Source: a virus
IMG/VR virus record: IMGVR_UViG_3300010885_064105
Location: 1-64,000 of that record
Reading direction: 5' to 3' (one strand)
Length of the DNA: 64,000 nucleotides
Shown here: positions 5,700 through 64,000 of the stretch, in pieces
How positions within the stretch are numbered: position 1 is the first letter of the stretch
Layout: every line of letters starts with the position of its first letter
Made by a program: the position numbers and the translations under genes
Notes under the pieces: model-generated
What the model saw: the letters and a program-made list of their open reading frames with translations, nothing else
Told to the model about the DNA's origin: nothing
Databases searched by the model: none

Positions 5700-8600
5700 A
5701 TGTCTAATGACTGGTGTGATCCTGCCTCTTGGTTTTATGATTCTGGAAACCTTAAGCCCGCTAATAGTATTCCGCAAAATACCAATGATATATATGTTGA
5801 CAATAATCTATCACTAGATCTTGCAACAATAAATTGCATTGATAAAATATCTTATTTAAAATGTGAAAATCTATCGTTATCTACTTCATCAGGAACTGGA
5901 AATTTTATTGTCGGATTTTTAAATGCAAAAAATGTATCCTTAAATAAATGTAACATAACAAATTATATAGATGAAAAAAATCCCTTTAGTTTGTATACTA
6001 TTGATAGTTTAAGTCTTACAGATTCTAAAGTACATAGCATAGCTTTTGATATAGCAGAAAAAATTTCAGGAGTATCTAGCCTTGTAAAAGATTGCTTATT
6101 CTTATCAGATGGTCTTAATTTATATTTTGAAGATAGTATTTTAGAAGGATTGCCTTCTCTAGACTTTCCTTATAGTGATGATTTAAGGAGCAAACTAAAA
6201 TTATCTGCTGGCACATTAATAAAATCTCAAATTCAAGATTTTATCATAGAAAGTGATAGCGAATTGGATATTTATCTATACAGTAATATTCAAAAATGTC
6301 AAATAAAAAGTGATGTTAAATTTAGAAATAGATCATATCATTTAAATCCTTCAATAATAAATGGAAATTGTGAGTTTTGGGATAGTTGTAAAAATTATGG
6401 AACAATCAACGGGAATGTTATTTTTCATGGTGGAGCAGCAATAAATTATGGAACAGTAAAAAAAGCAATTTTTGATAATGGAGGAGATAATTATGGAACT
6501 ATTGAGGAGGCTGAATTTTATGGAAATGGTACTAACTATGGAAATGTAGGCAAAGCTACATTTTATAATGATAGTATTAATTTAGGAAATGTTGGCTATG
6601 CAATATTTAAAGGCTCAGGATGTTACAATGAAGGCAAAGTTTATGAACAAGCTATATTTTTTACTTCCGGAAGCTACAATAATGGAGTAGCATATAATGC
6701 TATTTTTAATTCTGGAACATTCAATGATAAAGGTGGTATAGTATTAGGATCATCATGTTCTTTGGATGGTGCTGAAAATAAAGGAACTATTAATGTTGAG
6801 AATACAATAACCCTAAATAATTCTTATGTTTATGTTGACAGCAGTTCTATTATTTCTAATAGTGGAAATGTTGTTCTTAAAGGTTCTTCAGGAAGCTCAT
6901 ACATTTATGCTTATAAGTCTATATTATTAGATAAAAGTTATATTAGAGGAGAATTATCTTCCCCTGGTTTAGTTACAGTTAAAAATAATAGCCATATAGC
7001 AGCAGTAGTCTGGGATGTTGTTTTTTATGATTCAAGTTTTGCTGATGGTAGTACGATAATAAATATTGGTAATTTTTATAATGATTCTTATTTAATAAGT
7101 AGTAGCTGTAGATCTGGTATTTTTAATGATAATTCTGCAAATTATAGCACAGTAAGACATGGTGTCTTTAACAATAATTCAAAGAATTCCGGAGTAGGGA
7201 TGGTCTTTGATGCATTGTTTTATAATAATTCAAATAACCAAGCATCATGTACTACTGGGTTATTCTATAATAATTCACTCAATGGCCATTTTGGAAATGG
7301 CAACTATTTAACATTTTATGACAATTCAATTAATGCTGGAATCTCTTCAACAAGAATACTTTTTAGTGGAAATTCTTCAAATACAGGAGAAATAAATAAT
7401 GGTGCTATGTTTACAGAAAATAGTATTAATAATGGAAGAGTTAATATTGCACATTTATTAGATAATGCTAAAAATAATGGATATATAGGATCAGGTTATT
7501 TAAATAATAAAACTATTAATAATGGAAGAATTTTTTCAGCTTTTTTACGCAATGAATCAGTTAATGACAAAGGATTTGTGTCGAAAGGTTTTTTTGATGA
7601 TTCATCTAAAAACAACGGGTTTGTTGAAAGTGGGCGCTTTTATGGGTATTCATCGAATGATACAAAAGGCTTTGTTCAGTATGGATTATTTTATAATGAA
7701 AGCATTAATAAAGGAAAAATTATAGATGGAAATTTCTATGACTTATCTACGAACAACTCACTATTTAGTCCATATCATATAACTTTTTATGATCATAGTT
7801 CAAATATAGGTAATATAAATATTAATAACAATTTAAAATTTGATGATAAAACATTTACAGTAGCAATATATAGTGGACAATATCCTGTTTTTGTTGGATC
7901 TAATGAGCAATTCTTATCAGACTTTTTTTGTAATACAGATCATTTTTCTCCATATTGTATTTTCAATTATAAAATAGAATTCAAAGACTATTCTATAAAT
8001 AGAGGCAACTTAAGAGGCTATCGTGATTATATTTTTAATGATAATTCTAAAAACTTTGGACAGTTATTTTCATATAATATAATCCCAAATCATGCTACAA
8101 TTGCTTACTTTTCGGAAAATAGTATTAATTGTGCTAATATACCAAAAGGTAAAATTATTTTTTCAAACGGCGCAATTAATTCTGGAAATATATCATTTGG
8201 TGAATTTTTAAATAGTTCTATAAATTATGGTAATATTAATAGTTATAGTTTGCCTGATACTAATATTTATTCAAATTTTACGCCATGTTATACTATACCA
8301 AATACTAATACTTTATATTTTTACAATGCTTCTATTAATTATGGCCAAATATTATTAAGTAATGGAATGACCCTAAATGGAGAAGATCATAAAATTAAAG
8401 CAGTATTTGATTATGCTATTAATGTTGGAAATATAGCAGGAAGCGCGATATTTAATCATTGTATAAATTCTGGATTTGTGATGAAAAATAGTCAATTTAA
8501 TGATTCCATAAATTATGGAACAATTGGAGGCAACGGATATTTTGTTTCTGGAATTAACTATGGAACTATAAGAGGTTCTGGTAGTTTTCTATCAAATAGT

Positions 8601-40936: not shown

Positions 40937-43900
40937 TTATCTTTTTTTATATCCCATTAAAGTTATAGAATGTCTACAATATTCAAAAGAGTAAGGAAAC
41001 GTTGAAATTCCTGCGCAACTACCACGTCTACAATATCCATATGTATAATCTTGACACTCACAAGCATCTGCAGTAGATCCTGGGTTTGGAGGATAAAAAA
41101 CTCCAAAAGGACTAAATCGAGCGTCGTCAATTGAATGACAGGATGTGTCGCTGTCACCCGATGAAGAATCAAAACTTGGTGTATAATCCTTAACAGCGGT
41201 AGTTTTAGGAATATCTTCTATACCTCCAAGATTTGTATTTACTCCGCAATTAAGTAGAGACGTGGATCCATTAAAGCACCTATTAAAAACTCCTCTGCTC
41301 TTGTCGCCGTCACCAACCATAATAGTAGTTTCTGTACTAGTAAATTCTGTTCCAACAGCAACAGACGGACCAACTCCTCTATTGACCGGATAATCATAAG
41401 AAAAATCATTTCTGTCAGAACAAGCTTGATGACTTGAATAATATATTGGTAAACCCCTTTCGCAGATGCAACCTCTAGTTGGATCTCCAGGGTAATTAGT
41501 ACCAGAACACGCATAATCACTTAATTCTATTGGAAACTCAGCTGTTGCGGTTAGTTGCGGTGGCTTACTACAATCAAGAGTATTAGTAACAGTAGCCGAA
41601 GTTATTGCTTTTGAAAGAGTCAAGCCAAACTGGCCTCTTTCTGTACAGGTTGCTACTTGGGTAATTCCAGGTCCACTTACAACACTATCTGCCACTATAA
41701 GACTAGTTCCAGTAGTTCTTTCTTCATAAATTTTTGAATCTATATATCCAGCAGATAATGACGAACAATATAGTCTAATATTAACTATTCCATTATCATC
41801 TTTTTCTATTCTAAATTGCATATCTACATTACCAATAGTAACATCAACCTGTTTATTTAATGCTAAAATACCATCTATAGATATAGATCCATTTATTTTA
41901 CGATCAGAACAATCGGCTGTATTATCTAAATCATATGGTATATTTTTGTATATATCTTTAGCTTCAATTTCTGGCTCTATATACTTGTATAAATCTTTAT
42001 TTTTAATATAATCACTTAAATTATCTATTCTTTCTAAATTAATTTTTTGTTGTTCTCCATATATTAGACGAAACAACATCTCATTAGCTAAAGTATCTGT
42101 ATTATTTACAAGAGCTGTATGATCAGTAACTATACTAGAAGAAAGCATGCTTTGATATTCTTCATTTAAAACAGAAACTTTAGCATCATTTGGTCTTGGA
42201 ATATTTGTAGAGTTACATAATGACTCTTGAAATAAGGTACTATCTGGATTAAGTTCAAATCTTTGAATATAATTAACTCCACTATTCCCTATTGGATTAT
42301 AAAATCCTCCATCATATGATAAAATATATGGAATATCATTTTTTTTTGCAATATCTGATATTGATAATTGTTTAGGGGTATATGCTGTGTATGTTGATGA
42401 GAAACTATCCCAACCAACAGTACTAATGCCGCATGTTTTACTATCACAACCAGTAAGAGTATCAGAATCACAATAAACAGGATACCTTGCAAAAGTACCT
42501 CCTCCAGTAGACGAACTTGTAAAATGACTAAAATCGAATACAGAATTGTTAGGAATAGTAATATCACCCAAAGTAATACCTCCTGCCCTAAACATTTGTC
42601 TACATCCATCAGTGGGAGTACTTGGAAGATTACTTCCGCTATAAGTAATAGACGTCAATTGAAGAGGAGTATCATTAATTCTTAATGTATTAGAATAAAA
42701 ACCTCCAACCGAACTTTGTAATGTTAAGGATGATTTTAGTTTATTTTGTGAATCTAAGTTAATCCAAAAATATTCTTTTTGATTTGCTCTTGGAGATAAA
42801 TAACCCGCCCAATCATGATTACTTTCTAAATTTGTATATATTCCACTAATATTAATTATCCCAGACCATAATTTATTATTGGTAAAATTAAAAGAAGAAT
42901 TTATAGTACTTCTAATAGTATTACTACTTTCACCAGGATTAGGCAAAATATTAATATCTATAAAGGGCAGATAATTATTTATAGGTAAATAGTCATATCT
43001 AGCTAAATCTTTATAGTAGTCTACATTATATTTTTGATGAATAGTATAGTAAACTAGCCCCGTCGTAGATAAATTAATATTACTATTTGAGGTTTTTAAT
43101 AAAAAATTATGATTAGAATAATTAGCATTATTAATGATTGTTTTATAAAAATGATTAAGATATGGCGAAGAAGGATAGAATTGATTTAAATAATTATTAT
43201 TATATATATAGCTAGTAATTTCATTAATCTGTTTTCGGTCATCAAAACCTATCAAGTCTCCCCACTTAGTTTCTATAATAGGATTATATAAAACATGATC
43301 TGTCTCTTTTTTAAGACCCAATGAAGACTTTAAATCCTTAAAAACAAGGAAAGAATCCATACCATCAGCGCTTTGGTCATTTTGGTATAGCCTATTAAAA
43401 TCTAAATATGCAGTATCATATCGTAAATTATTCTCTAATACTAGTTCAGTATATATTTTGATATATTGATCTTTAGATGAACTACTTGATTTTATTCTAT
43501 TGCCATATCGATCAACAACATGTGCATAAATATTTTTTTCTATTATTTTACCCACATATTGTTTACTAGGCTTTGAAGCATCAACTATTACTATCTCTTG
43601 GTTGCATAATTTTTTAGTATTATATACATATCCTAATTGATTAGCTGAAGTATAGTCAATATGTAGATCGCTAAAATTAGTATATAAATAATTATAATCA
43701 GAAAAAATATAAGAACTTGCTTGGTTTTTAGGACCATCAATATATCTATATCTTAATCCATCACCTAATTTAATTTCAGGATTGCTATACGTTATAGACT
43801 CTTGCTCATCAGAAGTCATATTTTCAATGGTAGAACTAGCAATAGTAGTAGCAGAATCTTTTTCGGCAATATAAAAATATGGTCTTACTCCCTCTAATAT

Positions 43901-46900
43901 TATTTGTTTAGCATTATTTGTATTTTTGCTAATTTTTAGTAAGTACTTATTATTAATAAAAATTAAATTTGGATCATCAATATTTTTTATAGGATAATTG
44001 TAAATAAAATTAAAATCAATATTTTTTTTAGGAACTGCTGGCAACCAAGGACCTATTGCTGTTGTATCTTTTTCATTATTTAAATATTCAAATACAAATG
44101 GTGGACCTATACTTAAATTATTATTGTTATAAAATCCTCCTATATTTGGAATGCTGTATTCATACCATCCATTATTAATAAATAAATATAGTCTTAATTT
44201 TCTATGATTATCAAAATCATTAATCTGACTTATGGTTCTTCGTATAGTATCATTCATTTCTCCATATAATACAATTCCACTCGTGCTATATTGAGCACTT
44301 GGAGAAAAATTATCTTTATCATAGTCTATAATATAATTATATGTATCATATTGAATAATAGGGGTTTTATCTGTATAGCTAGAGTCAGAAGTTAGGCCTT
44401 TATTAGGATGAAAAAATCCCTTTTTCAAAACTCCAAGAGATTTTGGCTTTTTGATATAAAAATTTAAAATTTGTTTTCGTGGTATTTTATAAAACTTTAT
44501 AGAAACAGAAGATGTCTCATCCCCTCTTGATGCAAAAATATTTTTTTGACAAAAACTACCAAAAGGAGGATATAGTTCGTATCTAGACGCTAATGCTTCA
44601 AGATATGGATTAGTTATAGATATAGATACAGTATTAGAAAAAGTATTTCCTTTTGAAGCTATATTTTTTTTCTGTTTAGAATATAATGTTGTATTATCAA
44701 TTATAACTTCATTTGCAAATCTTTGGTAGCCCAGATTAGGAGAAGCTCCTCCTTCGATAATCGGAATTCCTTCTTCATTTCCAATTGGAATCATTCCTGT
44801 AATTTCAAAATACTCATTAAGTATAGTAGGTTTGAATAAATCTATATCTTCTATAATTTCAGCCCAAATATCTGAATGAACAGTATTATAAGATGGTAAA
44901 GTTATATTATAATATGTTGTAACATAATTATTTAATGTAGCTGTTACGGATCTACTTTTCCCATATGGGTAAATAGGATCAATATATTTACTTGCTGAAG
45001 ATAAAATATTTTCTGGTTCAGGGTGGCCGGGAATTCTAAATTCAGCTAAGGCTTGAGTTAGGCCATTTAATGTACTTCTTTTTGATGTTCTATCATTTTT
45101 ATATGACTCAAGAGTTGTTCCATCTTTATCTATTGATAATCCAGCTAATTCCATAAATTTTATAGTTTCGCTTAAATTATTAATTTCTTTTTTCAGAGCA
45201 GCAATTTGACTTGAAATTTCTCCTCCTCCTAACAATTTATTAATATCATTTAATGAATATCCGCCATAGGCTTTAACTGGTGGACTAAATTGTGTAGAAA
45301 GATTAGGGGTATATATACTACCAGCTCCATATGTTATTTGTGAAGAACCGCATCTATAAGGAAAATCAGTCACCTTTAACATATTAAAACATTTACATTT
45401 ATTAGATATGGGGAATGCTCTACAACCAGCGCTATCTGATGAGCTACCTCTTAATTTTTCTATTTTTAAAGAATATATCTTAATACCAACATTACTAGTT
45501 GTAAATTCTAGCTTACAAATACCTCCATTGGTATCATTAAATAATGAGTTACTACCGAATGCTGTTGTTCCGCTAATGTTGTCACCAAATAAGTTATTTT
45601 TAAAAAATACTCCTCCTTGATGATGAAAAGCAACATAGTCAAGATGCGGATTAAATGCAGCAGCAGGATAAGACCGTTTATAATATAAGGTATTGTTTTG
45701 AATATTCCTAGCGGGCCTATCTCCAAAAGCAGATCTTTGATCGCACCAGCTGTCATTACCAGTATATTCTGTGCATATCTTATTTGCCTTGACATTTGGT
45801 AAATAATACGTACTATCTGGATCACAAAAATTACATGGATAGTTATCCGAATCATTATAGTTATTACAACAGCTATTTGCAGGAGTTTGTCCATTTACGA
45901 GTATTCTTGGATAATTATCTGAAAAAGTATAACAACCACTATTATAGGGAACCTCTTTTATTGTACTACTATTTAATAGTAACCCTGCTGTTTGAATACT
46001 ATTTGTTTTTACCATAGCATTATTTTTACAAACAGCTTTATATTGGGTACCTGTATTTAAACGAGATTCAAATGTGACATTTCCTACAACAAACTTTTGA
46101 GAATAGCTAAAATTCTTTTGCAATGTATTAGCGGTACAGTCTGTTGTTGGCGTACAAGTATTTGAGCTCATTTTCACATCAGATATTGAAGCAACAACGT
46201 CGAAATCTAAATCTATTAAACATTGATGATTAATATTATTAGATAATTGTATAGTAGATGTGGTATTATGAGGACACCATAGATAGGCCCCATATTTATT
46301 TGCTAATGTATTAATTAAATCTCCAGAGTTTTTAATATAGTTAAGTTTACCGACTGATCCATACTCAGTACCAGATAACATATCTATATTTAATCCGGAA
46401 ATTTGAAAATAATTATTAATTATATATGAATATGATGCATTCCTTTTTGTTAAATCAACTGTTATTTCATCATATTCTGGAGCTGTTGCCAACAAAGCCG
46501 CCAAATCAAATTTTTGTTGTACTGTTTTACTAGAGCCATCAGCGCTCACAGCTTTATTTATTCTATTATAAATAGACCTAAATTTAGAATATATATTAGC
46601 AGATATGTAGGTAAATGCTGATCCTGATGGAATAATTTCAGCTACTCCTGATGCTTTTATAATTTTTAATCCGGAGGGACATGGTTTAATTGCATTTGAA
46701 GCACTATCAAATTCTGTTATAGTATTATTTGGTTCTGGTCCGTCATTCGTTGCATAAAAAACATCTCCAGGAGAAATATATAAATCAACACCTTTTATTG
46801 GTCTAGTATCCGAAGTTTTATTTGTATCAAAATATCTATACCAGCATAAAACACCAGAATTATAATTCCATTTCCAATAAGATGCTACTTTTTTTGTTTT

Positions 46901-47737
46901 AATAAAAATATTATGGTAAGTATCTTTATCAAAACCATATGGAGTTATAAAGTTATCAACATCTGGTAGTAATTTATTAATATTTGATTCTGATTCATTT
47001 AAAGAACTTCTATGTATAAAATTACCACATGTTTGAGATAAATATTTGGCTTTATTATAAGCTTTGTCATGATCATACTGTGAATTATATTGAGAGGTTG
47101 ATAAATCGTATGGTATTTCATCAATAGTTTCTTTTATTCTCCAATCTATTATTAGTTGTGGAGATTGGGAAAATATGCTAGTTAAAGAATTTTGAGGAAA
47201 TGTTATAAATGAACCAAAACCTAATCCAGGATTTGATGCTGCTGGGAATTGTTTAAGATACTTGAAATCAAAAAATTTATTCAAATAATTTTGGTTCAGT
47301 ATTGGTATTTTTTGTAAATAATCATCTTTCCTCATTCTTGTATCACAGGCCCCACTTGAACAATCAGATGTAAAAGGACCCTTGGAGGCACCATCGGCAT
47401 CTGTCAGATTCCAAGTTGCCTTATAATCTGGTGTCAAAAAATTATTACAATATGAACAATTAAAAGAAGCATCTAATTGTAATGTGTCATAATCATAGCT
47501 ACTAGCATCTGTACAGTTTGTGGGATCGAATGATACTTGTGAAGGATTACTTTTTGGTTGTATTAAAAAATCAACATCTGATAATGTTGAAGAAGATATA
47601 ATGATAGGTAACCAAAGTCCACTAGTACTGCTATCAAAAGCAGGTATTAGTGCAGATAACGCTGTGGTATTAATAGTAGCTTGACTATAATTAACACTTT
47701 CTAATAATGATTTATTGAATATGTAACAACTACTCAT
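40937..47737 (-). CDS. giant cysteine-rich structural protein
   Basis: The protein has about 2266 residues. I start it at the ATG at 47737 (MSSCYIF), preceded on the minus strand by an AGGTT-type ribosome site; the longer frame begins inside the upstream gene. There is no recognised enzyme domain. The sequence is rich in S, N, Y, D, with many cysteine pairs (CDPDSTYYLPN, NKCKC, KTCGIST) and many short strands, suggesting a long beta-structured virion protein. A helical stretch (about 880-930, SSQIAALKKEINNLSETI) could be a trimerisation coiled coil. Placement between hub-like and small tail genes suggests a baseplate, fibre or adsorption component. The C-terminal 400 residues are the most cysteine-dense. 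Confidence 0.7.
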   Translation of the reverse strand: MSSCYIFNKSLLESVNYSQATINTTALSALIPAFDSSTSGLWLPIIISSSTLSDVDFLIQPKSNPSQVSFDPTNCTDASSYDYDTLQLDASFNCSYCNNFLTPDYKATWNLTDADGASKGPFTSDCSSGACDTRMRKDDYLQKIPILNQNYLNKFFDFKYLKQFPAASNPGLGFGSFITFPQNSLTSIFSQSPQLIIDWRIKETIDEIPYDLSTSQYNSQYDHDKAYNKAKYLSQTCGNFIHRSSLNESESNINKLLPDVDNFITPYGFDKDTYHNIFIKTKKVASYWKWNYNSGVLCWYRYFDTNKTSDTRPIKGVDLYISPGDVFYATNDGPEPNNTITEFDSASNAIKPCPSGLKIIKASGVAEIIPSGSAFTYISANIYSKFRSIYNRINKAVSADGSSKTVQQKFDLAALLATAPEYDEITVDLTKRNASYSYIINNYFQISGLNIDMLSGTEYGSVGKLNYIKNSGDLINTLANKYGAYLWCPHNTTSTIQLSNNINHQCLIDLDFDVVASISDVKMSSNTCTPTTDCTANTLQKNFSYSQKFVVGNVTFESRLNTGTQYKAVCKNNAMVKTNSIQTAGLLLNSSTIKEVPYNSGCYTFSDNYPRILVNGQTPANSCCNNYNDSDNYPCNFCDPDSTYYLPNVKANKICTEYTGNDSWCDQRSAFGDRPARNIQNNTLYYKRSYPAAAFNPHLDYVAFHHQGGVFFKNNLFGDNISGTTAFGSNSLFNDTNGGICKLEFTTSNVGIKIYSLKIEKLRGSSSDSAGCRAFPISNKCKCFNMLKVTDFPYRCGSSQITYGAGSIYTPNLSTQFSPPVKAYGGYSLNDINKLLGGGEISSQIAALKKEINNLSETIKFMELAGLSIDKDGTTLESYKNDRTSKRSTLNGLTQALAEFRIPGHPEPENILSSASKYIDPIYPYGKSRSVTATLNNYVTTYYNITLPSYNTVHSDIWAEIIEDIDLFKPTILNEYFEITGMIPIGNEEGIPIIEGGASPNLGYQRFANEVIIDNTTLYSKQKKNIASKGNTFSNTVSISITNPYLEALASRYELYPPFGSFCQKNIFASRGDETSSVSIKFYKIPRKQILNFYIKKPKSLGVLKKGFFHPNKGLTSDSSYTDKTPIIQYDTYNYIIDYDKDNFSPSAQYSTSGIVLYGEMNDTIRRTISQINDFDNHRKLRLYLFINNGWYEYSIPNIGGFYNNNNLSIGPPFVFEYLNNEKDTTAIGPWLPAVPKKNIDFNFIYNYPIKNIDDPNLIFINNKYLLKISKNTNNAKQIILEGVRPYFYIAEKDSATTIASSTIENMTSDEQESITYSNPEIKLGDGLRYRYIDGPKNQASSYIFSDYNYLYTNFSDLHIDYTSANQLGYVYNTKKLCNQEIVIVDASKPSKQYVGKIIEKNIYAHVVDRYGNRIKSSSSSKDQYIKIYTELVLENNLRYDTAYLDFNRLYQNDQSADGMDSFLVFKDLKSSLGLKKETDHVLYNPIIETKWGDLIGFDDRKQINEITSYIYNNNYLNQFYPSSPYLNHFYKTIINNANYSNHNFLLKTSNSNINLSTTGLVYYTIHQKYNVDYYKDLARYDYLPINNYLPFIDINILPNPGESSNTIRSTINSSFNFTNNKLWSGIINISGIYTNLESNHDWAGYLSPRANQKEYFWINLDSQNKLKSSLTLQSSVGGFYSNTLRINDTPLQLTSITYSGSNLPSTPTDGCRQMFRAGGITLGDITIPNNSVFDFSHFTSSSTGGGTFARYPVYCDSDTLTGCDSKTCGISTVGWDSFSSTYTAYTPKQLSISDIAKKNDIPYILSYDGGFYNPIGNSGVNYIQRFELNPDSTLFQESLCNSTNIPRPNDAKVSVLNEEYQSMLSSSIVTDHTALVNNTDTLANEMLFRLIYGEQQKINLERIDNLSDYIKNKDLYKYIEPEIEAKDIYKNIPYDLDNTADCSDRKINGSISIDGILALNKQVDVTIGNVDMQFRIEKDDNGIVNIRLYCSSLSAGYIDSKIYEERTTGTSLIVADSVVSGPGITQVATCTERGQFGLTLSKAITSATVTNTLDCSKPPQLTATAEFPIELSDYACSGTNYPGDPTRGCICERGLPIYYSSHQACSDRNDFSYDYPVNRGVGPSVAVGTEFTSTETTIMVGDGDKSRGVFNRCFNGSTSLLNCGVNTNLGGIEDIPKTTAVKDYTPSFDSSSGDSDTSCHSIDDARFSPFGVFYPPNPGSTADACECQDYTYGYCRRGSCAGISTFPYSFEYCRHSITLMGYKKR

Positions 47738-47744
47738 TGATAAC

Positions 47745-50700
47745 CTAACTATGTGACTGTAAAACCCACGCACTATCTATATAAACAAAAACTCCTTTAT
47801 TTCCCTGAGATACACTAAAGCCTATAGGGTTATCAAATGCTGTAGTGTAAGTGATCTGGCCACTACTAAATACTTGATATAATTGTACAGTAGTTCCTCC
47901 CTGTATAATTCCTGATGTTATAAATGGTCTATTATAAATAGGTTGATAAAAACCACTATCACTATCATATTTACAATAAATTTGAGCTCCTCTTGGGGCG
48001 GGATTAATTTGCAATTCATCTTTTACAAAAACTAATTTTCTAAGACCACTAGGCAAAGGGTTATTATTTAGATCACTTATTATTTCTCCTCTAGACGGTT
48101 GTTTATTTACTAAATCATTTTCTATTTTAATCCATACATTTTTATAATTAGCTCCAACAGTCCATACTTTGGCCTTAGCATCCCATCTAAGATCTATTGG
48201 ACCAACAGGCCAAGTTCCTGGCATTTGACCCCAACCTTTAAAAAATTTATGTTCTCTATAAGGTTTCGTCCAAGAGCCATCAACATTTTGTGTTTGGTTT
48301 TTATACAGGGGCTTGTTGTCTGAGTCTTTTTTAATAGCTCCATTACTATCTAGTAAAAATTCTCCAGAAGCATTCGGTACAGGATATCCTTCGGTATCAT
48401 AACCCCAACCATGAACCATTACTGGCCCCCGTAAGCCAAAAAATCTCATATTATTAGCCGGTAAATTCTCGGTATTAGAATAACCAGCTACTGCAGTATA
48501 GCTTGGTTTTGTTATACCTCGTTGAGAGCAGTAATTATTATAATTATAGTCTATAGGATTATAAAAATGATTAATATTAGCACTATAGGATAGTTTTAAA
48601 CTGTCATCACCAAATGGAGGAGCTATTCCATTTGATACCATATCTATACAATGAGGAACAGTATCCCCGCTTTGTCTATTTTGTTCACAACCAAATTCTC
48701 CACTCATTAATAAAACTGGATTTAGTGTTGAATAATTGATAATAGGATTACCACTAATTCCGCTCAAAGCAGACATACTATTTCTAGAAATAATTTCCAG
48801 ATCATTACCACTCGCTATAACAAATGGAGGAGTAGTTTCTTTTGGAGAGGCCCCAATATATTTATTTTTAGTTTTTTCATCGTCTAGTTCACAAAATCCA
48901 CAAGCTACGCTTGATACAACTTCAATGCTATTAGTTACTGTGCTAAATGAGCTTGAGTTATTAATTGTTGGGTTATTTAATTTTTTATAAGAATACGTTC
49001 CTGCTCCTAAACATATAGGACATCTACTTCTAGGATATTTAGTAATATTATATGTTGATCCATAAGGACTAGGATAAAAAGAAATAGGAGATAATATACC
49101 ATCTAAGCTCATAATAGATTTTCTATCATAGTCTGTTAAAAGTTCTCTTGGAGCTTCATCAGTTTCATATAGCCCAATATCTCCTACATATCTTGGCAAA
49201 TCAACTGGATTAGTATTTGCTTGCCCATAAGGAGCCATATGCCAATCTGGACTATAGCCGGCTATTACAGCTGAAGAATCCGGATGAATATGAGTCCTGT
49301 TTGCCCCAAATAGAATTTTACCAGGACTCCATTTTAATTGTTTAGGAATATCACTACTACTAATAGTCTCCATAGTTTTTGCAAAATTAGCCTTTAATAC
49401 ATTTTGTGCTGTATTAATAGAATCATTCAAAGCTTTTTTTTGTTTAAAATTATCTAGTGCAAGCTGCTTGAACCTATCGGTGTTGTCTTTATTAAAAAAT
49501 CCTAATTTTCTAGTATATGTTCTTAGCGTATAATTAGATGTTATACCATCTTCAGCAATATTAACAACAATATTAGATATTAAAGGACCACCAGCGACCA
49601 ACACATCTCCTACCAATCCTAAACTAGTATCTATTCCTACTATCCCTAATTCTCCATTTTCATGAACTTGTTGATAAGCAGCATCATTATCTATTGTTTT
49701 ACAAACATACGAATCCAAATTCTCCATACCTCCAAAATTCCATGGAACCAATTCAGGATCTTCCTTAACATTAACAGGTCCGGCTAAGTTATTAATAGTA
49801 CCTGCTCCGTATAAACCAGCTTTTCCAGGATTGTCTATCCATGGTCCATAAGTAGCCAAATTAAATTGAATAGGAATAGCAGCAAATGCTGGACATGTTG
49901 CTTTAGGTTCTATTGGAATGTTAGGCCCACTATCATTAACACTAACTGTAGTATTTATATCATTAGAAATCCTAGCATTTCCGCACAAAAACCAAGATAA
50001 TAATGCTCCATCACGAATTTTAGTAGAGTCAAAACCAGATTTAAATGTTCTATTATATTTGCTTGCTAAAATAGCATCATGTAACATAGTAAAAACTAAG
50101 GATCTTTCACATTCATTTTTACCACCTCCTAATTTAATTGGTTGATCTATAGACATTACTACCCTAGGAGTACCATCTATATAAACTAATTGCTCCTGAG
50201 CTGATGCTGCTACATACATTTTGTAAGAATAGCCCTGTGGAATACTGTCTCCTTTTGGAGTTGTAAAACTTCCATCGTTAACAGAAGGAAAACTATATCC
50301 TTGATTTTGTACTGATGGACTAGCATATTGTATATAGGTATAATCACTTGGACTCAAGTTATGTTCTAATGGAAAATAAAAGAATTTATTTTGTTCTGCT
50401 CTTGATGTAAATTTTCTATATTCTTTTTGAATTACAGCATGCATAGCTCCCATGCCCCCAGCTGCAGATGCTTGAAGTTGAGTATCTAGCCAATCATCCT
50501 TTGTTGATTTATCTGCATTAGCATTAAAGCCTAAAATAGGTTTTATCTTTCCTACCTCATCCCTAAAAGTATCAGCTACTGTAGAACCAATAACCATAGT
50601 GTCATCAATAAATGTACCATTTTCTTCCCAAGCTCCATCTGTTGATATTTGCCAATTATAAAAATATTGACCAGACTCTGGGTCTTGATAATATAGAACT

Positions 50701-58700: not shown

Positions 58701-60133
58701 TTTATATATGCGCCAGTTTGATTGTTGAGAATACCTATAATAATATTATTATTACTATTAGATCCTGCTGAATTAGTATTGCCAAGGAATACTGTATTAT
58801 TTATTGAACCACTAGCATTGTTCTGGTTTCCAACCAATAAAGAATTAGTTATGTCTTTTATAATATTATTTTGACCAACTAATAAAAGCTTGTCTGGTAC
58901 CCCTCCACTATTTATGGTATTATTAATACCAAGTAATATGCTATCAGACAGTCCTTGTTGATTAGGATTATTATTGTTGCCGATACCTATAATCATGGAT
59001 CTAACAGCATCGTTGGAACCTATTCTATTGCCTATAAAAATTCCGCTATTAATATTAGATGCTGTTTGATAAGACCCAATACATATTAGATTATTTCCGC
59101 TAACTATATTTTGATTACCATAAGAAAGATTATTATTACCAGTTAAATATACTAATGAACCTATGAGATTATTATTACTGCCAGATACTGAAGTGTCGTT
59201 CCCTATATAAATATTAAAATCGCCAATATTAGAAGCATTAGAGCCCAAAACTATTCCTGAGATTCCAGAAGCGGTTAGCCCTTGAGCCAAGCCAACGGTT
59301 GATGAAATACTAGCATTATTATTACTACCCAATAAAATATTATGCAGTCCTGTGATATTAACAAAATTACCTAATAATGTATTATTAGATCCACTGGTAA
59401 CAATTGAGTTTCCTACGTTTATACCAGAAACTCCAGAAAATACTGAATTATTAGCAAATAGAAATACTCCGTCTCCGTTTACAATATTACTATTGCCAAT
59501 AATTATTCCACTATTAATTTTACCAGTATTGAGAGACCCAATATTATTATATAAAGTTCCACTTAATTCATTATAGTTACCAACAATATTATAAGAAAAA
59601 CCAGAAACAGAATTATTACCCCCTAAAGTAACATTAGCTAAATTAGCTACAAAAACAGGTTTATTTATACCAGTTTGATCAACTGTAAAAATAATTTCCC
59701 CACTTGTTGATCCTGTATTTGGGTCTAAGATTTTAGATAATATTTGACCATAATATATTTCATTATAATTAGTATCTCTACCAGCAAGATTTATAATAGA
59801 TGGATAACTGCCACTTACTGGCTGTGTTTGTGGATTGTGTACCAGTAACAAAGTGACTCCGGTAGGACAGTTAGTAATGCTCTCTATAATTAGGCCATCT
59901 TTTGAGCATGGAGTAACTATGTGTAAGACAGCGTCTGGCAAACCAGTATTAATTCCCAGTCTTCCGGTAGAAGCATCATAAGTGAGACTAGAATTACCAG
60001 TAGAAGATATTTGAAAATCAATATTTTGCTTATTAGCATTAAAAACTGTGCTAATTCCCGATGTTTGTGATAATGTTATATCAGGATTAATGCCGCTACC
60101 AATAACCAAATTATCTGTAATATTATAGCTCAT
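55745..60133 (-). CDS. tail fibre with NNN-type beta-roll repeats
   Basis: The protein has 1462 residues. After an N-terminal region with a GRLGINTGLPDAVLHI motif (the G-x-G/N-T-x-x-P-x-x-x-LHV element seen in fibre repeats), residues about 165-805 hold dozens of short degenerate repeats of the form G-N/S-x-N-x-x-x-G-x-x-N-x-x-x-G, as in the stacked heads of trimeric adhesins. The C-terminal part (about 1230-1462) has HAFAAGSFLHG, YNIFVSVLW, AAGMSIQGCIYRSADG, and resembles the C-terminal end of many phage fibres. It should be a trimeric fibre that contacts the host. It overlaps the tape-measure-like gene by four bases (ATGA). Confidence 0.8.
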   Translation of the reverse strand: MSYNITDNLVIGSGINPDITLSQTSGISTVFNANKQNIDFQISSTGNSSLTYDASTGRLGINTGLPDAVLHIVTPCSKDGLIIESITNCPTGVTLLLVHNPQTQPVSGSYPSIINLAGRDTNYNEIYYGQILSKILDPNTGSTSGEIIFTVDQTGINKPVFVANLANVTLGGNNSVSGFSYNIVGNYNELSGTLYNNIGSLNTGKINSGIIIGNSNIVNGDGVFLFANNSVFSGVSGINVGNSIVTSGSNNTLLGNFVNITGLHNILLGSNNNASISSTVGLAQGLTASGISGIVLGSNASNIGDFNIYIGNDTSVSGSNNNLIGSLVYLTGNNNLSYGNQNIVSGNNLICIGSYQTASNINSGIFIGNRIGSNDAVRSMIIGIGNNNNPNQQGLSDSILLGINNTINSGGVPDKLLLVGQNNIIKDITNSLLVGNQNNASGSINNTVFLGNTNSAGSNSNNNIIIGILNNQTGAYINTAGNISGIAKVMNIPLNNSVIAGINNAQYGGLSNNIVGNKNSVSGSNDTVIGSFNDLRHSSKSYSIGNSNYIIGDNIGAAGSNSLIVGKDSLVFNNSDKRMDVFGSGNIVLGYNQLATSGLVVGTNNKIYGLNNTIYGRNNTLGSIAHPFLMNGLSSFSISIPSLNVSNKYTVGDLALISIQSPASTGNTFIREILNITENTIDNTTVVQFSTSIGVDASNGYYSINSNFDDNNSPNNTVVSGLIMPYMVGGGAGGPELNPSYGCNNIIIGSNNKYIYSSGTVIGFNNNVSGVKNVVVGYGISGITDNTLYIGTNNLNKVILDNDLIVFNSGKVQSNFIVKSTDNNTSIVNIDLNNNRFGINTDRPTADLSVSGLTSTSTIRVGFSSPDQYVLTSNVNGYGTWQLPVRLSGLDTGLMVKINNKVGSGISNIYFDPNGESLNFNLDNNNGLIINPTGIFVNDGGNLYTMRIRGSGGDDFAKVLFNTNLGNNRIDFFNVSGNSGVFNNLSLASGLSLPISLTGTFLYVNSSGKLLSYPSRACSVLYASSNSWATGDTSFRWFNNQSTLALGATGIVSYDLLATNTNDTNYNILLSSNNQIDTIFNNRGLGNKFSVINSGALNTRRGLHISPASGQVAINVIPDTFNSVINQAHLYVEGKTWTNSLRIGPGITTSGLYLRVDNAGNVIPSTLDLTTQFSGNYPITTTYTSLGQNNAFRVDIGLQNVDRAGNSLGVNNDGQSLIWDGAKWNLNKGIIAPQSSWLSNDDKTLKGLQFGYKSKVNYTYHTHAFAAGSFLHGSNLYDGSSQFTQHYLRCRTPASGGNIVALTTNFAKDSVTTENQYNTISLSNVNGYNYDNVWTYNIFVSVLWQNGTNSSNPAVGDRQAAGMSIQGCIYRSADGTIFTKLGQEKINIFATGVGVVGMPAGMGVGTYLDNDGQTNVPRLSIRATGVDGKTALWTATAQIHQLNHPAGSVDGSPFGYNLYGSV
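57730..59640 (-). repeat. coding short repeats (Asn/Gly beta-roll)
   Basis: This stretch encodes the Asn/Gly/Ser-rich repeat part of the fibre. The plus strand reads as dense ATTATTA/TACC-type sequence. Units are about 14 residues long and vary enough that the DNA is not a simple satellite. Confidence 0.65.
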
Positions 60134-63100
60134 GCTATTGCTCCATCTGTTTGTTTGCTTATGCTACTCATGGCTTTATTAACTTCTCCCACAATCATGT
60201 TTCTAATACCTTCTTGCATACCTTGTAATGCTCCGGCTCCGTTAATGACAACATCAACTTTATGATTTCCTTGAATATTAATAACTTCTGGTAATTTTAG
60301 GCTATTTAGTTGTTGAATAAACTTGCCAAATGTTGCTGTAAACTGACTTAATCCATCAAAATTTAGGCCCATATCTTTATTATTAGATACACCACCGCCT
60401 CCTCCAGAAGTTTCATCGGTCATGCCCCCATTAGCTCTATATATTGGTTTTTTAAGTTGTATTGGCCCTCCAGCTTCTTTATAGACTACATGGCCTCCTT
60501 GATTATATTTCTTACTATTAATTTGTTGTAATAAATCTAAATTATTTTGAGCTGCCTGTTTATTGACTACAAACTCTCCGGGCGTTAACATGGCGGGGAC
60601 AGTATCACTACCCCTTGGTTGATAAGGAATTAGCATTCCATTATTAGCATAAATTATTCCTCCAGAGGCATGGCCAGCAGCATTTTGACGATTGCTATTT
60701 TGGGCTAAAAATTCTGGATGTTTTTGACCTAAAATTTTCCAAGCATTATCTAATACTAAGCCCTGAGCATGTGCTGCTTCAACTTGCTTGGAAAGTATTG
60801 CTAAGGCAGTTTTACCACTTGTGCCAACTATTCTACCTCCTATTGCAGGATATCTACTAAATTGAAATAATGCTTGTTTAGATCTATTATAAATACCTTC
60901 TAAATATTTAAATTGTCTTTGATCTTTTAAGTACATCTCCTTAGCGGCCTTATATACATCTTCTGGAGACAAAGACATAAAATGCTGTTCATAGAATTCT
61001 GATTTTGCTTTCGCATCTTTATCCTCATCAAGAGCTGATCTAACAGAGCCAGGCATAACTAGTTCAAATTTATCTGGATTAGCATTTACTTGTTTTTCTA
61101 GTTCCTCGAAGATTTTTACTAATGGAGATCTATTATTATCTGCCCTAGCGTCTACGTTGGCTCTGTAAGCCTCTTCCCTAGCGTTTAACATTTGATCATA
61201 TGAAGTAGTTTTATTTTTTCTAGCTGTTGCTCTATCTTCACGAGCAGTTTTTTCAGCTGCTCTACGATCTTGGTATGCTTGTTGTCTTTGTTCTAATGTT
61301 TGTTTTGGTGGTCTTGGTGGGGTATATCCACCCCTTGGCCTATAGATAGGATCAATCACTCCTCCATTAGAATATCCCTGGACTCCATTATTTATAGATT
61401 GTAGTAATGATAAATTTTTAGACGTAGCCTTAGCATTAACAACAAATTCTCCTGGTGTTAGCATAGCAGGAACAGTATCGGTGCCGCGAGGCTGATAGTT
61501 TACTAGTGTTCCTTGTGAAGCATAAATTATACCACCTTTATTTTTATTAATAGGCAGCTTTGATGCATCAAATCCATCTTGAGCATAAACAACGCCACCT
61601 CTATTAAATCTCATTGGGATAGGTGTTGTCTCATCATATAATACTTCTGGCGGTCTAGGCATTTGAGCTAAATTAGCTCTTTGTTCTGGAGTTGAGAGAG
61701 TCATAATCTCCTCACGAACAGCTTTTATATAATCTAATTCTTTTTTTGCCCAATCATTTTGAGATTGTAAGACTTGTGTCCCTTGCTTATTTGTCGTATT
61801 AGATATTCCAATGGCTGCTGGGTCAAACTGTGATGTTCCGTCTACAGTTGTTCCATCAAAAATATTTCTTTTTTCGTTATTAGCTTGATTATGGCCTAAG
61901 ACATCTATCGCATTTTGTGTATTATTTACAATTTGTTTTAAATAACTTGTTCTTTCCCAAATTCTATCACTAACTCTCTGAGTTTGTAAGAGTTGTGTGT
62001 TGGTTAGCTGCAAATTAGCATTTGGAACAGCTCCGGGAGGCACTGCTCCTCCAGTTCCATTGATTTCCTCCATTATCTTTTTTGCTTTCGCAAGAACGGT
62101 ATCATCGGCATCTGAACTATAGCTATTTTTATCAAATCTTTTAGGTTCAAAAGCTATTTGATATATTAGCTCGTCTAAGACAATATCACTATCACTTTTG
62201 CGATTATTATTTTCATCTAAGTTTAATTTTTGTTTTCGCCATAAGACTGAGGCTTTTTGTACTGTATCTTTTACCTTATCAAAGTTAGTATTTGCTTGGA
62301 TATCTTCCAAAGCTTTTTCCCTAGACTGAGCATTAACCAACATAATATCAGAAGGATAAATATCCATTAAATTATCTATAGGCATGCCAAATTTATCCAT
62401 AGGCTTCCCATCACCATTAACACCTATCCAAGAATTGCTTTCATTAGTACTTTGTGCTTTGTTTTCCATCCTATTAACATTTTTTCGTCTTAGTAATCCT
62501 ACTAAACCTCCATTAGCAGAATAAATTACCCCTCCTTTGCTTTTATTGATGCTTTGTAATAGTGGTAGATTTTGTCTTGTTGCTTGAGCATTAACAACAA
62601 ATTCTCCCGGAGTCAGCATCGCTGGCACTGTATCGGTACCACGAGGTTGATAGTTGACTAGTGTTCCTTGTGAAGCATATATCATGCCTCCTTTTTGTTT
62701 CGCCTGTATTGGTCTAACATCTCCATCAATAACCTGTAATGATCCCATAGGTGTTGGTATACCAAACCGCGGATCTGTAGCGTATCCAACATTACCCTGA
62801 TGAGCGTCTTTCCATTCGTACCCCTTTTCTCGTAAATATTTTTGCATTTCAGCACCGACATTGCCGGTTTGAAATTGTTTTTGAGCTTCTGGATCAAGCG
62901 TTTGAGTTCTTTGTTGAAAGCCTACAGTATATGGTCCTATATTTTGTCTTCCTGTATATCCTGCTACGCCTGGAACATCGGAAGGTAAAGACAAAGCTTC
63001 TAAATCAGGAGACTTTAAAATATTTTGAACATCACGATTTTGTGTATATCCAAGTTTAAATACTTTTCCATTACCAGCATCAAAAACCATCGATTCTCTA

Positions 63101-64000
63101 CCAGATCCAACAAATTTCATAGAAGATGGATCTATACCAGCATCTCGCAGATATTTGTCTACTTCTTTTAACATTCCGGGTTTTGCATTTCTACCTGCTA
63201 ATAACGAACTGCCAGTATATCCTACCTGCCTATCTGAAAGTAATTTCTGTATATTTCCTTCAGTTACAGAATCTGGTTTCTTTGTCATAAATACTGGCAT
63301 CCGTGGATCTTCATCAGTTTGTTGCTTTACAAAAGGTTTTTTGATATACTCTAAAATTTTACCAAGAATACCTTTGGATGAGGAACTAGATGGTACAGCA
63401 GGCTGTGACACATTGGAGTTTGATGTGGTTCCTCCCAAACTAGATGATAAAGGAGCTAATTGTAGCTTTGGGTTTGATCCAGCATTAGTGGATTCGTTAC
63501 CAAAACTATCCTGATTTGATATTGGCTTAGGTCTAGACATACTGTTTGTAGACGCATTCTGAAGAGCATCTTTTGGCGACGAGACTCTGCGTCTTAAACC
63601 AGCATCAGTAGTAGCATTATCTAAAGTATCTCCAGTCCTAACCATTGGTCTAGTAACATTTGATGTTGTTAAATCATTAAGAGTATTAGGGTTAGAAGCT
63701 CCATAACCAGGAACAGGAATGTTCGGTCTTTGTCCAGTTAGTGGTGTTCGTGATCCTTTTACTCGTTGCATTAATCTAGGCTGCTGATGACCTGCTCCTC
63801 CGGTACCCGCCCAACCTTGCGCAATATTTTCGACCATTTGCCAAGCCATTCCAGCATTTTTATACCATTCAGGTAGATTTTCGTTCAAGCCGTACTCAAT
63901 TACTCTTTGTTGTCTTTCAGTTTCTGATTCTTTTCTTGTTCCAAACCAATAGGGAATGTCTTGAGGTGTCTGTTCCCAAACCTTACTATCGATAGCTCTC
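60130..64000 (-). CDS. tape-measure-like protein, 5' end outside window
   Basis: The frame is open through the right edge, with coding-like sequence (DIPYWFGTRKESETE) upstream of the TTG at 63888, so the gene is partial. At least 1289 residues are visible. It contains three copies of a GG-x-IYA-x-x-G ... PRG-T/S-DTVPAMLTPGEFVVN module, a motif typical of tape-measure and tail-chaperone proteins; a compact kinase-like domain; a long charged coiled-coil region; and a C-terminal helical segment ending in an IQGNHKVDVVINGAG strand pair. Tape-measure proteins set tail length and are ejected into the cell. The kinase-like part is unusual. Confidence 0.72.
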   Translation of the reverse strand, partial: RAIDSKVWEQTPQDIPYWFGTRKESETERQQRVIEYGLNENLPEWYKNAGMAWQMVENIAQGWAGTGGAGHQQPRLMQRVKGSRTPLTGQRPNIPVPGYGASNPNTLNDLTTSNVTRPMVRTGDTLDNATTDAGLRRRVSSPKDALQNASTNSMSRPKPISNQDSFGNESTNAGSNPKLQLAPLSSSLGGTTSNSNVSQPAVPSSSSSKGILGKILEYIKKPFVKQQTDEDPRMPVFMTKKPDSVTEGNIQKLLSDRQVGYTGSSLLAGRNAKPGMLKEVDKYLRDAGIDPSSMKFVGSGRESMVFDAGNGKVFKLGYTQNRDVQNILKSPDLEALSLPSDVPGVAGYTGRQNIGPYTVGFQQRTQTLDPEAQKQFQTGNVGAEMQKYLREKGYEWKDAHQGNVGYATDPRFGIPTPMGSLQVIDGDVRPIQAKQKGGMIYASQGTLVNYQPRGTDTVPAMLTPGEFVVNAQATRQNLPLLQSINKSKGGVIYSANGGLVGLLRRKNVNRMENKAQSTNESNSWIGVNGDGKPMDKFGMPIDNLMDIYPSDIMLVNAQSREKALEDIQANTNFDKVKDTVQKASVLWRKQKLNLDENNNRKSDSDIVLDELIYQIAFEPKRFDKNSYSSDADDTVLAKAKKIMEEINGTGGAVPPGAVPNANLQLTNTQLLQTQRVSDRIWERTSYLKQIVNNTQNAIDVLGHNQANNEKRNIFDGTTVDGTSQFDPAAIGISNTTNKQGTQVLQSQNDWAKKELDYIKAVREEIMTLSTPEQRANLAQMPRPPEVLYDETTPIPMRFNRGGVVYAQDGFDASKLPINKNKGGIIYASQGTLVNYQPRGTDTVPAMLTPGEFVVNAKATSKNLSLLQSINNGVQGYSNGGVIDPIYRPRGGYTPPRPPKQTLEQRQQAYQDRRAAEKTAREDRATARKNKTTSYDQMLNAREEAYRANVDARADNNRSPLVKIFEELEKQVNANPDKFELVMPGSVRSALDEDKDAKAKSEFYEQHFMSLSPEDVYKAAKEMYLKDQRQFKYLEGIYNRSKQALFQFSRYPAIGGRIVGTSGKTALAILSKQVEAAHAQGLVLDNAWKILGQKHPEFLAQNSNRQNAAGHASGGIIYANNGMLIPYQPRGSDTVPAMLTPGEFVVNKQAAQNNLDLLQQINSKKYNQGGHVVYKEAGGPIQLKKPIYRANGGMTDETSGGGGGVSNNKDMGLNFDGLSQFTATFGKFIQQLNSLKLPEVINIQGNHKVDVVINGAGALQGMQEGIRNMIVGEVNKAMSSISKQTDGAIA
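60514..60663 (-). repeat. tape-measure module copy 3
   Basis: The third copy is more diverged (IYANNG, PRGSDTVPAMLTPGEFVVN, LDLLQQIN). It is followed by a glycine-rich linker and the C-terminal domain. Confidence 0.8.
61390..61539 (-). repeat. tape-measure module copy 2
   Basis: The second copy differs from copy 1 at only a handful of residues (for example AKATSKNLSLLQ for AQATRQNLPLLQ). It lies about 340 residues after copy 1. Confidence 0.8.
62548..62691 (-). repeat. tape-measure module copy 1
   Basis: This is the first of three near-identical modules of about 48 residues: GGMIYASQG, then PRGTDTVPAMLTPGEFVVN, then LPLLQSIN. It directly follows the kinase-like domain. Confidence 0.8.
62704..63126 (-). 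other. kinase-like domain inside the tape-measure-like protein
   Basis: Residues are counted from the TTG codon at 63888. Residues about 255-395 show the ordered landmarks of a compact protein/small-molecule kinase fold: a glycine loop (GSGRESMVF, 261-269), a VFKLG strand with Lys278 at the ATP-lysine position, a GPYTVGFQQR hinge-like strand, DAHQGNVGY (361-369) matching the D-x-H-x-x-N catalytic loop of aminoglycoside-kinase-type enzymes, and VIDGD (386-390) at the metal-binding DFG position. It is small (about 140 residues). Confidence 0.6.

Follow-up and report, generated by a model that had tools for sequence, protein, structure and literature searches.

Does a giant phage protein that guides tail assembly also carry a kinase into the host? 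The question is raised by the minus strand of IMG/VR virus record IMGVR_UViG_3300010885_064105, of which positions 1 to 64,000 form the window (part of a record of 122,362 bp), and where an earlier note, made from the letters of the window, had seen a compact kinase-like domain inside a tape-measure-like protein. The open reading frame (ORF) in question (60130-63999, minus strand) is open at the window edge and continues to record position 83514, such that the protein counts 7,794 residues from the first ATG (record positions 83514-60130, minus strand). The earlier note had numbered the domain as residues 240-400, but the ORF starts outside the window; most of it lies there, and the window holds its C-terminal ~1,289 residues (residues ~6,506-7,794; 60130..64000), the last sixth of the protein. 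Profile searches place a tape-measure core at the N terminus (PF10145, E=4.4e-22; TIGR01760, E=5.5e-12) and tail genes flank the gene, and by this family domain and gene context the giant protein is a tail tape-measure protein (TMP), as the earlier note had it. Our answer is that the mini-kinase is probably one cargo of a polyvalent TMP, a kinase-fold domain related to PolyVal and phage kinases that would be delivered with ejection and phosphorylate a host target.

The mini-kinase domain spans residues ~6776-6938 (~150 residues; 62701..63189), slightly more than the 62704-63126 first assigned to it, although the location was right. All four motifs that had been reported are found on the minus strand in the order of a kinase, between residues 6803 and 6932: the glycine loop GSGRESMVF (residues 6803-6811; 63082..63108; read from the sequence and the alignments), the strand-3 Lys6820 of VFKLG (63055..63057; invariant in alignment A8), the catalytic loop DAHQGN from Asp6903 to Asn6908 (62791..62808; Asp and Asn invariant in alignments A1 and A8) and the metal-binding Asp6930 of VIDGD (62725..62727; invariant in A1 and A8). 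Written as a regular expression, the whole motif string has a single match in the giant protein and none in 2,000 shuffles of it; in a set of 7,229 ORF tiles (1.39 million residues), its only matches are the TMP domain and known phage kinases.

Direct searches with the domain against Pfam, PHROGs and NCBIfam (hmmscan) and against PDB (phmmer) returned no significant match, and the kinase case was therefore built through bridging sequences. A scan of viral contigs with the glycine-loop DNA pattern (which in bacterial genomes gave mostly chance matches) led to one such sequence, L150, the end of a 2,122-residue phage ORF that belongs to the Kinase-PolyVal family (PF18762; 53.4 bits, cut-off 27). 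A profile of eight PF18762-type members (Bacteroidota members and L150) scores the domain at 14.2 bits, a value reached by none of 5,000 shuffles (best 8.5), and in a scan of the 7,229 tiles the domain comes next after known kinases, with unrelated sequence below it. On the side of the stand-alone phage kinases, the kinase-like protein of Bacillus phage vB_BpsS-36 matches the domain with 27% over 127 residues (E=0.1 in a database search, E=1e-8 in a single comparison), and hhalign aligns the domain with a profile of eight Bacillus-phage-type kinase-like proteins over 121 columns, from the glycine loop to the metal-binding Asp (P=1.9e-4). The PolyVal and Bacillus-phage kinases are themselves mutually related (hhalign P=4.6e-8), and the catalytic Lys, Asp, Asn and Asp of the domain, the residues on whose conservation the earlier note had staked its proposal, align with those of both groups.

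Structure prediction points the same way. An AlphaFold2 model computed from nine sequences reached moderate confidence (predicted local distance difference test score, pLDDT, 60.2; predicted template modelling score, pTM, 0.53) and runs in the order expected for a kinase, with a helix, three strands, a helix, a strand, two helices, the catalytic loop and further strands. With this model, the 46 top-ranking Foldseek matches in PDB were all to APH(2'')-Ia (best E=3.1e-4, probability 1.00), CK2 also being listed, and the matches in BFVD were small phage proteins that include putative Ser/Thr kinases (best E=1.5e-5, TM scores 0.55/0.52). Together with the profile comparisons, the modelled kinase fold of the domain, and with it the claim of a kinase fold inside the TMP, is well supported. 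The fold would be a compact one, consisting of the N-lobe, the catalytic loop and the metal loop, and the full bilobal architecture that had been anticipated is not present, as the C-lobe is missing.

To which type of kinase does the domain belong? Four features define the Kinase-PolyVal group (PMC5512222): the C-terminal subdomain has been lost, strand 2 is preceded by a Glu, the last strand of the N-lobe contains a Gln, and there is an insert between the conserved His and the catalytic Asp. The domain ends with the start of a repeat linker some 10 residues past Asp6930, leaving no C-terminal subdomain; it has the Glu (Glu6807, 63094-63096, within the glycine loop; an invariant column in alignment A6) and also the Gln (62911..62916; invariant in A6), here as FQQR versus EQPF, LQQP or LKQR, the exact register varying by alignment. 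By contrast, the insert is absent (~16 residues are missing in the alignment) and the PF18762 Pfam model does not match the domain at E<=10 (cut-off 27 bits); we therefore call it PolyVal-like rather than a formal member. It shares with PF18762 kinases the Gly-x-Glu before strand 2, the Val-x-Lys strand, D-x-H-x-x-N with a later I-D and a setting within a multidomain phage protein, and differs from them also in its carrier, a tail TMP. The small Ser/Thr kinase-like proteins of Bacillus phages vB_BpsS-36, Curly and Glittering (phrog_18305, phrog_11167) resemble it in size, in the N-terminal helix, glycine loop, DLHxxN and VDxG, and in lacking the His-Asp insert, but they are stand-alone genes of ~20% identity whose annotation is by similarity alone. 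Judged by these sequence features, the domain appears to fall between the PolyVal group and the insert-free phage mini-kinases, as a formal member of neither.

The aminoglycoside-phosphotransferase type proposed in the earlier note survives in part. APH(2'')-Ia ranks first among solved structures and, with other aminoglycoside and macrolide phosphotransferases, is the closest solved fold, having D-x-H-x-x-N and I-D in common with the domain; yet the TMP domain lacks the C-lobe, which in those enzymes bears the drug site, hidden Markov models of the APH (PF01636), RIO and HipA families leave the domain unmatched even at E<=10, and its nearest relatives in sequence are phage mini-kinases and PF18762 members. 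Since these nearest relatives are protein-kinase-like, a protein target would be favoured over a small molecule. Free proteins with a related catalytic loop are also encoded by the phage group itself: mini-kinases of 180-200 residues with the string DAHxGNxGY (e.g. L096 and L109) occur in six contigs, the twin contig G001 included, and share the catalytic loop with the TMP domain, but have a shorter glycine loop (GSKN/GSRS) without the Glu, and no Gln. These stand-alone proteins (G001:C1:159124-159510; L096, L109, L123 and others) fall into no Pfam family.

Several points weigh against the kinase assignment and should be set beside it, beginning with the failure of the direct searches and the absence of the PolyVal insert. 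The fold match rests on a model of only moderate confidence, and as the alignment behind that model was picked from kinases, the match is not fully independent; a first AlphaFold model, from a different and poorer alignment, had a pLDDT of 45.7 and retrieved kinase folds only at E>=0.1, and is not used as proof. Single-sequence scans with the domain found only the copy in G001 and nothing in bacterial genomes. Because this sole close copy is identical in protein, selection on the active site is not measurable, and residue conservation is visible only in distant relatives. Two attempts were set aside, namely a PDB profile search with A8 that listed kinases alongside non-kinases, all at E>0.05, and a five-sequence PolyVal-only alignment that misplaced the catalytic loop and was not folded. 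The missing family match and the moderate model could mean that the four motifs are an accidental resemblance in a protein of another fold, but we regard this as highly improbable given the two shuffling controls, the full-length alignment to PolyVal kinases and the Foldseek probability of 1.00.

A different concern is activity. The domain could be a pseudokinase or a kinase-derived binding domain, whose retained fold would serve to bind a nucleotide, a host protein or a partner in the tail but transfer no phosphate. Its strong divergence would fit, as would the loss of the C-lobe, the normal substrate holder, and the long hairpin between the catalytic and the metal-binding Asp (27 residues, compared with 17 in Bacillus phage kinases). 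We nevertheless consider this unlikely, as Lys6820, Asp6903, Asn6908 and Asp6930 are all intact and invariant in A8, and PolyVal kinases, which also lack the C-lobe, are thought to keep an active site (PMC5512222). ATP binding and phosphotransfer by the TMP domain are thus predicted from the four catalytic residues.

Is the kinase a solitary passenger? The same TMP bears two ADP-ribosyltransferase-exoenzyme domains (PF03496) above cut-off, at residues ~930-1060 (record 80383-80634; E=1.5e-6) and ~1540-1670 (record 78532-78807; E=1.1e-8), in which the R, STS and ExE motifs (EKE, EAE) are apparently intact by eye. With several distinct effector-type enzyme domains in one polypeptide, the TMP resembles polyvalent proteins, and the mini-kinase would be one cargo enzyme among several that alternate with copies of a linker. 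Directly after the kinase lies the repeat linker GGMIYASQGTLVNYQPRGTDTVPAMLTPGEFVVNAQATRQNLPLLQSIN (62521..62700), which is shared with TMPs of sister phages. Its core, DTVPAMLTPGEFVVN, occurs in 10 copies in the TMP, 8 of them near-perfect; one copy lies at 62593-62634 within the window, and copies of the form DTVPAMLTPGEFVV lie at 61438..61479 and 60565..60606, all on the minus strand. The DTVPAMLTPGEFVVN repeat is flanked by GG-IYA and NLPLL..IN and is conserved between cargo domains across phages; a swap point, a hinge and a processing site are candidate roles. Upstream of the kinase, residues 6610-6740 (63295..63687, minus strand) form a spacer rich in Ser, Thr, Asn and Pro. Further along the protein, by eye, motifs resembling those of HAD phosphatases (LYADFDKT, VLTARP and VFVDDN) are present at residues 1272-1394 (record 79333-79701) with no Pfam hit, in a region conserved in the sister TMPs L135 and L136. 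A pair of EF hands (PF00036, E=1e-9) at residues 5648-5730 (record 66325-66573) represents a calcium-binding module, and an EF hand occurs in the sister TMP L138 as well. A PD-(D/E)XK-like (nuclease-like) stretch was noted by eye only.

Related TMPs in other contigs (3,074 to 6,199 residues, some of them truncated where the contig ends) are 56-65% identical in the tape-measure core where covered, and have the same linkers with other cargo (ADP-ribosyltransferase-, HAD- and nucleotidyltransferase-like), among them a stretch resembling ART-PolyVal (PF18760, E=1.2e-4, below cut-off) and a domain like that of cytidylyltransferases; none of the sister TMPs examined contains the kinase. In the sister phage G006 a segment corresponding to residues 6440-6609 (63688..64000, minus strand, continuing outside the window), immediately ahead of the kinase slot, is 68% identical, and is followed by a different stretch of ~590 residues up to the same linker, the slot carrying different cargo in the two phages. 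The match of the sister TMP L138 to the kinase region proved to be linker only, its slot holding ADP-ribosyltransferase-like sequence by eye without a Pfam hit, and no protein family backed the apparent GNAT-like character of a stretch in L139. In the sister TMPs L135 (residues 780-1170) and L134 (residues 590-970), from phages G005 and G002, a P-loop-like motif (GVAGAGKTT, GVAGSGKST) precedes a nucleotidyltransferase-like domain (for L135, PF01467 at E=0.0055).

Exchange of this kind is also what neutral filler might display, and the domain does sit in a tape-measure protein, where it could be a folded bead with an influence on tail length or packing but no action in the host. Such a purely structural or assembly role strikes us as improbable: a catalytic residue set is not expected to persist in filler, the same TMP bears ADP-ribosyltransferase domains with their R, STS and ExE motifs, and sister phages keep related mini-kinases as separate genes. 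If the kinase is instead cargo, as we favour, then by analogy with established TMP biology it would ride in the tail lumen and pass into the host together with the TMP as the DNA is ejected. If the TMP leaves ahead of or with the DNA, the kinase could phosphorylate a host target as soon as infection begins. The earlier note's proposal that a kinase is delivered with the genome and able to modify host targets before phage genes are expressed is, as an inference, in keeping with the biology of TMPs and of polyvalent proteins (PMC5512222), and early modification of the host has precedents in T7 kinase and T4 Alt (cited in PMC5512222). More tentatively, this uncultured phage group may use its tail TMP as a multi-warhead carrier of interchangeable host-modifying enzymes that would travel in the tail and reach the host first, the conserved repeats serving as swap points and perhaps also to signal processing or threading; the enzyme train might then comprise the mini-kinase, the ADP-ribosyltransferases and the HAD- and nucleotidyltransferase-like domains, a composition that we put forward with equal reserve.

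Polyvalent proteins, mini-kinases and enzymatic TMPs are each already known. Polyvalent effectors have been described as head-packaged or fused to head or portal proteins (PMC5512222, PMC9503650), and the former account deals with packaging in the capsid head and MuF/portal fusions, the words 'tape measure' being absent. TMPs with an internal enzyme domain include that of mycobacteriophage TM4, with a peptidoglycan hydrolase motif (PMC1796659), and SPbeta YomI; these act on the cell wall, whereas the enzymes predicted here are of a type that modifies the host. That an exchangeable domain can be delivered by a tape-measure carrier is shown by contractile injection systems, with their TMP-derived effectors (PMC13277306). 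Sle1 and Tme (PMC13277306, PMC11126660) combine, like the phage protein, a TMP-derived coiled-coil carrier with an exchangeable domain and are ejected, as the phage TMP would be, but they belong to cellular injection systems and have one C-terminal domain, in contrast to the many repeat-separated domains of the phage protein. TMPs with kinase or ADP-ribosyltransferase cargo were not found in the open-access literature, and the sole tape-measure passage of a jumbo-phage overview retrieved there concerns DNA delivery. If the TMP does bear a swappable enzyme set, the first protein across the membrane would also be the first weapon, before any phage gene is read; a link would be made between phage biology and the effectors derived from TMPs that were recently reported for contractile injection systems, and the enzymes would point to a set of early host targets that can be tested directly.

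As to the surroundings of the gene, the best match of the TMP core to a cultured phage is SPbeta YomI with 27% identity, so that the collection of phages searched contains no close isolate of the group. Immediately upstream of the TMP gene, ORFs of 65 and 296 residues overlap in different frames (L009:4526-5492; record ~83525-84491). Frameshifted tail-assembly chaperones usually sit just upstream of the TMP. The tail module also contains an ORF of 2,278 residues (window 40937-47773) without a PHROG family at E<0.1. Three adjacent paralogues of 375-378 residues, built from repeats (VSTYSLVYT..GGVLAPNGDIHFVP; L010:13085-16484, record ~111085-114484) and adjoined by a collagen-like GTQG protein, are probably tail fibres.

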